Of a stretch of DNA of 64,000 nucleotides, positions 38,925 through 49,624 are shown one piece after another. Source of the stretch: Acidilobaceae archaeon (GTDB lineage: Archaea; Thermoproteota; Thermoprotei_A; Sulfolobales; Acidilobaceae); contig JALVZQ010000008.1 of the NCBI GenBank assembly GCA_027037535.1, positions 186,001 to 250,000 on the forward strand. Reading direction: 5' to 3'. The notes beneath the pieces were generated by a model that worked only from the letters and a program-made list of their open reading frames with translations, made no database searches and had not been told where the DNA came from. Both the position numbers and the translations under genes were made by a program. Each line of letters opens with the position of its first letter. Position 1 is the first letter of the stretch.

Positions 38925-38983
38925 TATGGTGCGGGGGGTGGGATTCGAACCCACGCAGGCCTACGCCAACGGGTCTTAAGCCC
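38925..38983. repeat. attL: 59-bp copy of the 3' portion of tRNA-Leu(TAA)
   Basis: TATGGTGCGGGGGGTGGGATTCGAACCCACGCAGGCCTACGCCAACGGGTCTTAAGCCC identical to 49355-49413. Confidence 0.95.
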
Positions 38984-39805
38984 ACTCTATCGAGTGGACA
39001 GCTAGATAACAGAGATGTTCTAAGTCATCAGTGGAAACCTGGATTTTTGAAGAAAACACTGGGCATAAGCCTTTCTCAAAAGCTCCTCTCAGAGTTCAAG
39101 GCGTACTGTATGAAGAAAGCCAGCCCCAAAGTCTGCGAAGGCTACATCAGGAGACTAGAGGAGATAGACAGGGAAGAGAAACCAATAGACCATAGTAGAT
39201 GGCATATTACTGCATACAAGAAGCTAATGCGCTATCTATGCGAGGAAAAGGGGAATAGGAAGGCGTGTGAGGAGTTCAAACGGGTAAAGTCGAGGAAGAG
39301 CGAGGCGGATCTCTGGGTCCCATCAGATAAAGAAATGCTAGACACTCTAACTAGAGCCTGCAGGGAGAGCATAGACCTATGCTGGTTCTACAAGCTCCTA
39401 CTCTACACAGGGCTAAGGGCGACAGAAGTAGAGAAAGCCCTAGAGAAGGATGAATGGGTCCTCGAAAACGGAATATGGCTCCAGACCCTACAACTCTACA
39501 GAGGCAGCAAGAAAGCATTCCTAGCATTCAGCATAGAGAAACCGCCAAGACTAAAGGTCTCAGCCGACTGGGTCAGCCACAAGGCCTACAGGCTAGGCCT
39601 AATCCCGCCAAAATACGTGAGGAAATACGTATCCTCGAAAATGATAGCCCTAGGAATCCAGGAGATAATAGTAGACTTCATACAGGGCAGAACACCAAAC
39701 ACAGTCCTAAGACAAAGATACGTCTACCTAAGAGAAACCGCAAAACAAGAATACAAGAAATATGCCGAGTGGCTTACCAACACTCTCTTAAAGATGCTAA
39801 TGTAA
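38984..39805 (+). CDS. Tyrosine integrase, C-terminal catalytic part, int(C)
   Basis: Frame open from attL; LLYTGLRATEVEKAL (Arg I), PKYVRKY, TPNTVLRQRYVYLRE (Tyr); track ORF starts at TTG 39047. Confidence 0.88.
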   Translation, partial: TLSSGQLDNRDVLSHQWKPGFLKKTLGISLSQKLLSEFKAYCMKKASPKVCEGYIRRLEEIDREEKPIDHSRWHITAYKKLMRYLCEEKGNRKACEEFKRVKSRKSEADLWVPSDKEMLDTLTRACRESIDLCWFYKLLLYTGLRATEVEKALEKDEWVLENGIWLQTLQLYRGSKKAFLAFSIEKPPRLKVSADWVSHKAYRLGLIPPKYVRKYVSSKMIALGIQEIIVDFIQGRTPNTVLRQRYVYLRETAKQEYKKYAEWLTNTLLKMLM

Positions 39806-42574: not shown

Positions 42575-43045
42575 GTGAGGAATGGAGTGGGGAGCACGGC
42601 TCAATGCATAAAAGATTATCGAGCCTATATCCCTGTTTCTTCTTATCGTGTAGGAAAATTAATTAAAACTGGGGGCAATAGAGGCTACTGTCAGGCTTTA
42701 TCCCTTGGTCTAGGCCTTGTCCTAGAGTACTTTAGGATTCTAAGAAGGAATGGTAGGGGGTCACCAGCATACATTACAATATCGAAGATAGTTAAGACTC
42801 TGGGCGTTGAAGACACGCGCAGGAAACGGACCATAATTGGCTGGGCTCTAAACTATCTGGCCAAACTCGGATATATGGAGAGATGGAGTAATGGAAGCAA
42901 TAAGACGTACCACGTTACTGACAAGCTCTTCGAACACTTCCAGAACTATCCTTGCCTCACAGACTGCACCGCAGACGGCTCACTCTGCGGCCTAATCGCG
43001 ACCAACGAGTGCCCGTTTCTCGTGGGGGTGGTGAACGATGAGTAG
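42575..43045 (+). CDS. Winged-helix DNA-binding protein
   Basis: ITISKIVKTLGVEDTRRKRTIIGWALNYLAKLGYMERWSNGSNKTYHVT. Confidence 0.6.
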   Translation: MRNGVGSTAQCIKDYRAYIPVSSYRVGKLIKTGGNRGYCQALSLGLGLVLEYFRILRRNGRGSPAYITISKIVKTLGVEDTRRKRTIIGWALNYLAKLGYMERWSNGSNKTYHVTDKLFEHFQNYPCLTDCTADGSLCGLIATNECPFLVGVVNDE

Positions 43046-45156
43046 TCTTCTCCCCGTAGTAGAGGTCGAGCAGGTAAAGCTTGATGAGAGGGAGATCGTC
43101 CTCTCCCTCGGGATAGACAGGCAGATCTTAGCACTAGTCGGGGTCAAGAGGAAGAGGCGGAACAGCAGGAAGGTTAAGATCTACGTGCACCTGCTCAACA
43201 GTGGAGAAACATTTGCATACGAGTGCCTGCCTGGAAAGACTGACTCCTGCTTCAGGGATTCTATTGAGGAACCACTAACCCATGCAGGTCTAAGCGCTGC
43301 GGTGGATACTATAGCAAGAGTTCTTGGAGAGCTAGTTAATGAATGGGACGAGAGGGTAGAGGCCGAGAGGCTGACTAGGCTAGGAGAAGCTCTGACGCAG
43401 CAGTACAAGCCCCTCTTCACTATACCCAGCGGGGACGGGTTCCTCGAGGTTCTTGCTAGTGACGGTTTCGAACTGCCAGAGCACGGGGCCTTCATAGATC
43501 TCGGAGACTGCGTAGCAATAGCAGAGACAACCTACGCCTACGTTAGAGACAGCCGAGCAGAAAGCGGACTAGCAAGAATAGAGCCTGTAGGCCTTATAGC
43601 AATCTACACCCGCAGTGGAGAAGGCTTAAGGCTTAGCGAAGTAAAGCCTTTTGCACCTAAGCGAGATCATGCAATAACTGTCTGCGGCCGTCCTGTTAGG
43701 GTTAAGAGGGCCGCTGCAGCCGTTGTAGTCGGCTCTACTACGTTCGCAGATGCGAAAGTCTTTGAGGCCGTACTTGAAATGGGTGACTCGGCTCTAAAGG
43801 GGATCAGTTGGCCCTCTGTAGCTAGTGAAATACTAGATAGGCTTAGAGAAAGTGTCTACTTGAAGGATGAGAGGAAATACTATGTTTTAGCATCTTACGT
43901 TCTCATGACATACTTCCATGATGTATTCACAGCGATACCCTTCCTCTGGCTATACGGGCCTTACGGTAGCGGTAAGACGAGAACAAATGTGACGATTACG
44001 TATATGAGTAGAAGAGGTGTGATTATCCTACAGCATCAGCCAGCCTGTATAGGCTGGCTGATGCTGTAGGGGCGACGATAGGAATAGATGAGAGCGCCCT
44101 GAAGGGAAACCAGCCCCTAATACTTGCAGGGTCTTACAAAAGGGGGCTTTCAATACCAAGGGCAGAGCCCACAAAGCACGGCATACTGCTCAAGCTCTTT
44201 GACTCAGTAGTTCCACGCATATTCTCGTTCAAAGACCTGCCAAAGGAAGACTACTTGCTGCAAAGGATCATAGGCGTCTTGATGGAGAAGGGTATTCCTA
44301 AGAGGAAGGAAGACCCCTGCCGAGCGACTATAGAGATCTAAGGAATAAGCTATACATGCTCAGGCTACTAGGCTTGCCGCAGATCCTAGACGCTAAGAAG
44401 AGGGCTGCCGAAATCCTAGATCGCTGCATGGTGCAGGGCAGGGAAAGGGAGATATGGTGGCCTCTCCTAACAGCTGCCTTACTAGGTGGCTTTGAGGCTC
44501 CAGTCTTAGACTATATCGCCGAGGATCTTGAGAAGAGGGCCTCACGAGAAGACATCTATATAGAGGAGAAAACAGTGCTTGCAGCAATAGAAAGCACGCT
44601 CACACGGATCAAAGACCTTGACGGCAGAGAGTACGAGATAGCAATGTTCACTGCTAGCGATCTCCAACGCATAATAGTACACAGAATCCTCGAGGAAGAG
44701 AACTGCCTAGAGGTCGAGGGCCAGGATACTGCTGAGAAGGAAACCGTTAAGCCCGAATGCAGGAGAAGAGCAGAGGAGATTAGAAGGAAATGGAACCCGC
44801 AGAAGATAGGCAAGGTTCTAGAAAGGCTAGGCTTCAACGCCTACAGGAAGGCAGAGGGTAAAGGGGCAAGCAAGAGAAGATACTACAATATACCAGAAGA
44901 AGTATTCTGGGAGAAGGCAGGCCTATACGAATACACTAGAGAAGGGTCGGCAGAGTCGGTCAAGTCGGTCAAGTGTTTGAGGAATATACACAGAAAAAAT
45001 GAATCTACGGGCCAGACTTCTAACAATGATCTAGAGAATGACAAGAACTATGGGAAGAAAAAACACGTAATAAGTAGTATATCCCCTGGAAACTTGACCG
45101 ACTCGACCGACTTGACCGACCATAGGGGGTTAGAGGGGTTCTTCGATGACTCCTAG
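43038..45156 (+). pseudogene. Replicative helicase-like ATPase, one gene broken by two apparent single-C deletions
   Basis: Walker A LYGPYGSGKTRT (first piece, to 44069); Walker B-like GATIGIDES in a second frame (to 44341); DYRDLRNKLYMLRLLGLPQILDAKKRAAE... plus C-terminal wHTH in third piece (44356-45156). Adding one C near 44045 and one near 44317 restores a single ORF. Confidence 0.7.
44027..44070. repeat. Perfect 20-bp inverted repeat with 4-nt loop
   Basis: CCTACAGCATCAGCCAGCCT-GTAT-AGGCTGGCTGATGCTGTAGG. Confidence 0.98.
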
Positions 45157-45207
45157 GTCGGTCAAGTTGCAGAGCAGTATGGCCGACTCGAGACGGGACT
45201 TGACCGA
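44947..45207. repeat. Iteron-like 9-mers (TCGGTCAAG/CTTGACCGA), possible replication origin
   Basis: TCGGTCAAG at 44956, 44965, 45158; reverse complement at 45093, 45111, 45199; one-mismatch copy at 45102; degenerate copy at 44947. Confidence 0.65.
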
Positions 45208-46528
45208 CCCTGGCAGTCTCGAGGAGTTCTACAGGAAGTGGCTGGCCACACACCTAGGGCTCAACTGGTTCGTTGAGATAGCGCACAGCGGCCCTGACAA
45301 CAGGGAGTTTACTAGGAACCTCTTTCATCTCCCCGAGACGGGAGCTGGTCTAATCCTGGGGGTTAGAAGGGAAAGGAATGTGATGGCCTCTTCTGCGAGG
45401 TTTCCCGAGCCTGTAGCTGATAGGTCTCAGGCTAGGTATCCAGTGCTAACACTTGACTTCGACTGCGAGGAAGACCCTTGGAGTGCTGTAGGGGAAGCCC
45501 TAAGGATTGCAAGGGCCCTGAAGCAGGACTATGGGGCTGACAGTGTAATCGTGAGAAGCGGGTACAAAGGGGCCCACCTGCATATACCGCTGAAGAGTCT
45601 AGCTACTCATGAAGAGCTCAGAGTTATAGGTGAGCGCGTTATAGAGATGTTCAAGCCTAGGGGGTGTAGGGGGAAGCCGATAGTAGACACTAGTAGCTTC
45701 AGTGACTATAGGCATCTGATCCGAGTCCCCCATACCTTTAATATTAGAGGGAGAGGGAGAAGGCTGGCATTACTCCTCGACTATAGGTTGAACAGGGTGG
45801 ATCCGAGGGATTTCGAGTGGGGCGAACCTCTGGATCCTCGCTCTCTAGGCATAGTTCTGGTAAGGGTGGTTATACCCCTCATTAAGAGGCCCCATGCGAG
45901 ACGCTCAAGACCGAAATGGGGCTGGATTGAGAAGATCCTAGAGAACGGTCTTCCTGACGGTAGGAAGAGGTTCATTCTCTATGTGGCCTCGAGATACCTG
46001 GTGAACGTTAAGGGGTTAGGCATAGAAGAGGCCCTAGAAGAGCTGCAACAGTTTCTAGATGCTAGCTGTGAGAGACATAGTAATTGCTCCAGGATTTACA
46101 CTAGTTGGCTTAGGAGTGTTCTAAGAGCTGTAAGGGAGAAGCGGCTATACCCACCAGGCTTATCTAGGCTCAGGGAGAAGGATCCAGAACTCTACACCTT
46201 GATAAATACTATGGTTTCCACGCATACCGTAACAAGGCGATTGGTCAAGCTCCCCGAGCCTGTTAGAAGTTTCCTCGAGGAGACTGGTCAGGAGACATTT
46301 ACCTATCAGGACCTCAAGGAATGGCTTGAGACCAAGAAGGGCAAGGTGACAAGCGAGGAATGGAGCCGTTACACGAGGCTTCTAAGGAAACTGGCCGAGG
46401 AAGGGCTCCTGGGCAGAATGTTCCTTGTAGAAGGGAAATGGAAGGACTATGGGCCAGGTCCAGTAGAAAAACCGCCATCGAGAAAAGTAAAATTTTACGT
46501 TGTCGGGGAGAAAAACACTGTCGCCTAG
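45146..46528 (+). CDS. Archaeo-eukaryotic primase (AEP) superfamily protein
   Basis: VLTLDFDCEEDPW (DxD-type motif), VRSGYKGAHLHIP (SxH-type motif); probable start ATG 45179. Confidence 0.75.
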   Translation: MTPRSVKLQSSMADSRRDLTDPGSLEEFYRKWLATHLGLNWFVEIAHSGPDNREFTRNLFHLPETGAGLILGVRRERNVMASSARFPEPVADRSQARYPVLTLDFDCEEDPWSAVGEALRIARALKQDYGADSVIVRSGYKGAHLHIPLKSLATHEELRVIGERVIEMFKPRGCRGKPIVDTSSFSDYRHLIRVPHTFNIRGRGRRLALLLDYRLNRVDPRDFEWGEPLDPRSLGIVLVRVVIPLIKRPHARRSRPKWGWIEKILENGLPDGRKRFILYVASRYLVNVKGLGIEEALEELQQFLDASCERHSNCSRIYTSWLRSVLRAVREKRLYPPGLSRLREKDPELYTLINTMVSTHTVTRRLVKLPEPVRSFLEETGQETFTYQDLKEWLETKKGKVTSEEWSRYTRLLRKLAEEGLLGRMFLVEGKWKDYGPGPVEKPPSRKVKFYVVGEKNTVA

Positions 46529-49061: not shown

Positions 49062-49190
49062 TTTTTGAAGCCGTAAACCATGATTTTTTGAAGCCGTCCT
49101 GCCTTATAATTGGAGTCGGGTGCGTATTACCGTGTCTTACGATGTATTAGAGTGCTTGGAGTATAAGGCTTCAAAAACGGGCTTCAAAAT
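49062..49190. repeat. Direct and inverted TTTTTGAAGCC motifs around the int(N) start
   Basis: TTTTTGAAGCCGT at 49062-49074 and 49085-49097; GGCTTCAAAA at 49167 and 49180 (GGGCTTCAAAA). Confidence 0.6.
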
Positions 49191-49413
49191 GTATGTGTTC
49201 ATAAAAACAGTTAGACAAAACGGTAAAACATACAGGTATCTTGTAATAGAAGAATACGATCCCAGAACAAAACGCAAAAAGGTCCTACTACACCTAAGCC
49301 TCAGGAAAATCCTCGAACACTTCAAGAATGAAGTGGATGATAAGGCGACAGCCTTATGGTGCGGGGGGTGGGATTCGAACCCACGCAGGCCTACGCCAAC
49401 GGGTCTTAAGCCC
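49189..49413 (+). CDS. Tyrosine integrase, N-terminal part, int(N)
   Basis: MYVFIKTVRQNGKTYRYLVIEEYDPRTKRKKVLLHLSLRKILEHFKNEVDDKATALWCGGWDSNPRRPTPTGLKP; frame continues into attR; track ORF 49120-49485. Confidence 0.85.
49355..49413. repeat. attR: 59-bp direct repeat within intact tRNA-Leu
   Basis: Identical to 38925-38983. Confidence 0.95.
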
Positions 49414-49444
49414 GCCCCCTTTGACCGGGCTCGGGCACCCCCGC
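49360..49444 (-). tRNA. tRNA-Leu(TAA), intact, integration target
   Basis: GCGGGGG acceptor, anticodon loop CTTAAGA, T loop TTCGAAT, CCCCCGC A. Confidence 0.95.
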
Positions 49445-49624
49445 ACCCGTTGAAAACCACTCCTATAGAAGAAAATTCCTACTAGGCCTAGATATTTCTT
49501 TCCAAGGAAACATAGCGTTAAACGACCATATACTTTACTGGCTTGGCTCGCAATAAACTCAAAATAATAGGCTTAGACGATAGAAGTAATTATAGTACTC
49601 TGTGTATCGATTACTATCTTAGGT

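Follow-up and report, generated by a model that had tools for sequence, protein, structure and literature searches.

The window, a 64,000-nucleotide stretch of DNA from an Acidilobaceae archaeon, contains a 10.5-kb integrated element inserted in a tRNA-Leu gene. The element is bounded by 59-bp direct repeats, and its integrase is divided into two pieces, one at each end, as is expected after integration. An integrase split by integration together with an attachment repeat in a tRNA gene places it among the SSV-type integrated elements. Its ends and its intact primase gene are as follows.

38925-38983, plus strand: left 59-bp attachment repeat, with exactly the sequence of 49355-49413
39047-39805, plus strand: C-terminal part of the split SSV-type integrase (PF16795; phrog_5127 positions 111-353)
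45146-46528, plus strand: primase gene, intact, with a PriX domain and a primase-like N-terminal part
49120-49485, plus strand: N-terminal part of the split integrase (phrog_5127 positions 13-88), overlapping tRNA-Leu
49355-49413, plus strand: right attachment repeat, 59 bp, within the tRNA-Leu gene
49357-49444, minus strand: tRNA-Leu, overlapped by the N-terminal part of the integrase

The element thus resembles other SSV-type integrated elements of Thermoproteota in having a split integrase at both ends, a 59-bp repeat in tRNA-Leu, and a primase/ATPase replication module; it differs from them in that its ATPase gene is broken twice. The order and orientation of the ATPase and primase genes are conserved among the homologues in relatives. 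Searches of Pfam, NCBIfam, and PDB gave the broken P-loop ATPase no firm family name, and in its relatives there is only a sub-threshold match to DUF3631. No homologues were found among phage records, the only match among plasmid records was a brief one, at 41%, on an Acinetobacter plasmid, and no intact second copy of the ATPase gene was found in the genome. Given its Walker motifs and the adjoining primase gene, the ATPase is a putative replication helicase of the element.

When an intact relative is aligned to the gene, it matches in three frames, which correspond to the following pieces.

43038-44069, plus strand: N-terminal ATPase piece, with Walker A (GPYGSGKT); its final codons are an out-of-frame readthrough of a palindrome
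44045-44317, plus strand: middle ATPase piece, with Walker B (TIGIDES), in a frame different from that of the N-terminal piece; 57-58% identity to the intact relative
44310-44317, plus strand: site of the second loss of frame, where a run of C is too short by about one base
44311-45156, plus strand: C-terminal ATPase piece, in a third frame, otherwise open

The initial annotation located the loss of frame at a 20-bp perfect palindrome with a GTAT loop, and both the palindrome and its position are borne out: the open reading frame of the N-terminal piece terminates within the right arm, and homology to relatives resumes in the other frame, LYRLADAVGATIGIDES..., immediately downstream. The second frameshift, a one-base lesion about 270 nt downstream of the palindrome, is absent from that account and is an independent second event.

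The palindrome occupies 44027-44070 and pairs at 20 of 20 positions across a 4-nt loop.

44027-44046, plus strand: left arm, a presumed reverse-complement copy of the right arm laid over the ADPSEAT codons, with the new tract at about 44027-44043
44047-44050, plus strand: loop GTAT, the end of a Leu codon and a conserved Tyr codon, ancestral coding sequence
44051-44070, plus strand: right arm, ancestral coding sequence, its RLADAVG matching RLVEAAG of the 58% relative; presumed template of the copy

In a survey of the 300-kb contig that allowed loops of up to 60 nt, this was the sole perfect hairpin longer than 14 bp, the runner-up having 14 bp, and in ten Markov shuffles of the contig, the longest perfect hairpins had 11-13 bp. 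Perfect arms of 20 bp are therefore far beyond chance. Folded as DNA, the hairpin has a predicted energy of -26.6 kcal/mol (z = -8.8). A search of the genome with either arm, permitting up to 3 mismatches, found no second copy, and consequently the possibility that the left arm had been copied from a distant genomic template was rejected. Among short-looped perfect hairpins, the only other one in the contig to reach 14 bp lies at G000:C8:99649-99687, with 14-bp arms and an 11-nt loop.

What the gene looked like before the palindrome can be judged from the intact relatives recovered in searches of the order and the phylum (L005, L006, L008, and L009). Each has one open frame, of 661-742 aa: L006, L008, and L009 are of about 740 aa, and L005, from genome G106, is the nearest intact relative (661 aa; 58% identical in the middle part and 31-42% outside it). 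The aligned pattern in the relatives is ...YM(C/S)RHG-xxx(A/L)DPSEA(T/S)xYR-xxEAxGPT-(I/L)GIDES, and the window reads ...YMSRRGVIILQHQPA at the site, followed by LYRLADAVGATIGIDES in another frame. The flanks agree with the relatives on both sides (TYMSRRGVI and YRLADAVGATIGIDES), and between them ILQHQPA stands in the place of VADPSEAT. D343, P344, S345, E346, and A347 are invariant in all three of the intact relatives aligned, yet DPSEA is absent from the window gene in every frame in which it is read. YRLADAVG of the right arm stands where the relatives have YRLVEAAG, and the Tyr codon of the loop is likewise in place. By this comparison, made with relatives at the protein level, one arm and the loop are ancestral and the other arm derived: the left arm is entirely foreign to the gene. 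No inverted repeat is present at the corresponding place in the relatives. Furthermore, the distance from the glycine codon to the tyrosine codon is 33 nt in the relatives and 29 nt here. With ADPSEAT replaced and 29 nt in the place of 33, the gene has not simply lost one C; one stretch of it was exchanged for another, and on balance it became 4 nt shorter.

These findings bear directly on how the palindrome arose. The initial annotation had postulated that one C is missing, that the ancestor was one base away from a perfect palindrome, and that a classical quasipalindrome correction had perfected it. It is correct that one added base reopens the frame. However, the restored protein would still carry LQHQPA(L) in the place of ADPSEAT(L) and would be one residue short, so that DPSEA is missing even then; a frame reopened by a single base is no return to the ancestral gene, and the case serves as a warning of this. 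Nor does the left arm retain any similarity to an ADPSEAT coding sequence. The minimum edit distance from the observed left sequence to any DNA coding for the expected residues was compared with that of 2000 shuffles of the arm core; the observed value, 8, was the commonest value among the shuffles. The left arm thus bears no sign, in this test, of an earlier and imperfect form of the palindrome, and no imperfect palindrome is indicated in the ancestor at this site. Correction of a preexisting near-palindrome is consequently very improbable. The class of mechanism that was proposed, template-switch mutagenesis, is nevertheless well supported, except that a whole arm would have been copied over a motif rather than a repeat perfected by one base.

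Taken together, these results make it very likely that a single template-switch mutation inactivated the ATPase gene of the element. In this model, a snap-back template switch put a 17-nt reverse-complement copy of the downstream sequence in the place of about 21 nt. The new strand, whose synthesis ran from right to left across ...CTG TAT AGG, would have folded back around the GTAT loop, starting from a stem of 2-3 bp provided by the Leu-Tyr-Arg codons. The folded strand would then have copied itself for about 17 nt and rejoined the template with about 21 nt left uncopied. Because the nearest intact relative is only 58% identical in the middle part and less so in the rest, the exact ancestral bases, the switch points, and the starting micro-stem can only be inferred, and there is some slight chance that two or more separate events, rather than one, reached the same end state. 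The frame would have been lost at the switch, and the gene also carries the second, one-base lesion; consequently, the element probably has a replication defect and stays fixed in the chromosome. Both events are probably recent, since no further stop codons have been gained and the arms are still identical.

A different role for the hairpin would be to stimulate a programmed -1 ribosomal frameshift that yields a functional full-length ATPase, an alternative also raised in the initial annotation. A strong hairpin does lie at the change of frame, and the frames that follow are open and show homology. However, the shift would fall within the hairpin rather than a few bases upstream of it, and by inspection there is no X XXY YYZ slippery heptamer 5-9 nt upstream. 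In addition, the ADPSEAT motif would be lost regardless, another shift would be required 270 nt later, and the relatives have a single frame without a hairpin, so that there is no conservation of such an arrangement. Programmed frameshifting is thus hardly tenable here. It is also conceivable in principle that the palindrome is functional within the gene, either as a binding site for a regulator or replication protein or as an inserted repeat, since binding sites often take the form of long perfect palindromes. Yet the right arm consists of ordinary coding sequence that is conserved, and thus nothing has been inserted as a unit; the genome has no copies of the arm elsewhere, and the relatives have no repeat at this site. 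There is next to no likelihood that a functional palindrome accounts for the locus.

Both a snap-back hairpin and a base missing from a C run are types of lesion that enzymes and sequencers also produce, and it must be asked whether the broken gene is an artefact of amplification, sequencing, or assembly, with a library snap-back chimera in the consensus and a homopolymer error as the second lesion. To gauge how often frames are broken elsewhere, a set of 1010 long ORFs, drawn from 1.2 Mb of the same-family relative G008, was searched against the contig, and matches of at least 35% identity were counted, a method that short pieces near gene ends escape. There were no frameshifts in the 113 other homologous genes so covered (85.8 kb), and when an intact relative was used as the query, the method did reveal both lesions in the ATPase gene. 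General sequencing error is therefore unlikely and a decaying gene likely, two lesions having been found in one 2.1-kb gene and none in 85.8 kb. Zero in 113 genes fits an error rate no higher than about 0.035 per kb, from which no more than about 0.07 lesions would be expected in this 2.1-kb gene, but two are observed. Furthermore, a rare chimera should not enter a consensus built from many molecules, and the quality of the assembly is high (99.94% complete, in 8 contigs). An artefact caused by the hairpin itself, as the initial annotation had allowed, keeps a small residual probability at the palindrome, and an artefactual origin for the locus as a whole is unlikely.

Template switching by a nascent strand is established in E. 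coli (PMC7202029). The quasipalindrome-associated mutations described there have in common with the present case that the nascent strand serves as the template, that a perfect inverted repeat results, and that a change of frame is frequent. However, the E. coli events alter a few bases and so perfect a repeat that was already present in imperfect form, whereas here a whole arm, roughly 17 nt long, seems to be new and the gene is 4 nt shorter on balance. Perfect stems made by one template-switch event have been described for RNA genes (PMC8794818). Those hairpin-stem mutations share with this one a reverse-complement copy beside its template, a short loop between the two, and a stem that arises de novo; they occur in RNA genes, whereas the gene that was hit here, and would have been inactivated, is an archaeal one that encodes a protein. 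In yeast, one report describes template switching between the arms of inverted repeats in coding sequences (PMC8604942). There, as here, a multinucleotide change in protein-coding sequence is copied from the arm of an inverted repeat, but the yeast changes were traced through the coding sequences of a lineage, and the present one breaks the frame. Template-switch mutation is thus a known process, of which this locus is a new and clean archaeal example; a narrow literature search, which proves little, found no papers on archaeal cases. The locus offers a clean natural record of an archaeal nascent strand switching template. The direction, size, and consequence of the event are legible from comparing the gene with its relatives, and the locus suggests that an integrated element may lose a replication gene in a single step. 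It seems doubtful that de novo long-hairpin snap-back switching from a stem of 2-3 bp is a regular inactivator of genes in the mobile elements of hyperthermophilic archaea.

Two further observations concern the element and its relatives. A remnant of a related element is present in KUA_Bin13 (contig JAGDWI010000003.1, L002 5986-6817), where a fragment of the same ATPase runs into in-frame stop codons and the N-terminal part of an integrase lies at L002 6602-6817. In addition, a repeat array with 9-bp spacing is found at 44946-45208, between the ATPase and primase genes of the window. It consists of three direct copies of GTCGG(T), a spacer of 99-129 nt, three inverted copies, and an extra inverted pair. 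The array is iteron-like and is possibly a replication origin or control site of the element. A matching array is present in a relative at G106:C1:10771-10915 (L140; L005 473-782). With the given spacing, the GTCGG(T) array occurs in 2 of 216 genomes of the order, each time beside the ATPase gene, and a relaxed search for the GTCGG(T) triple across 400 genomes of the phylum returned the identical two.
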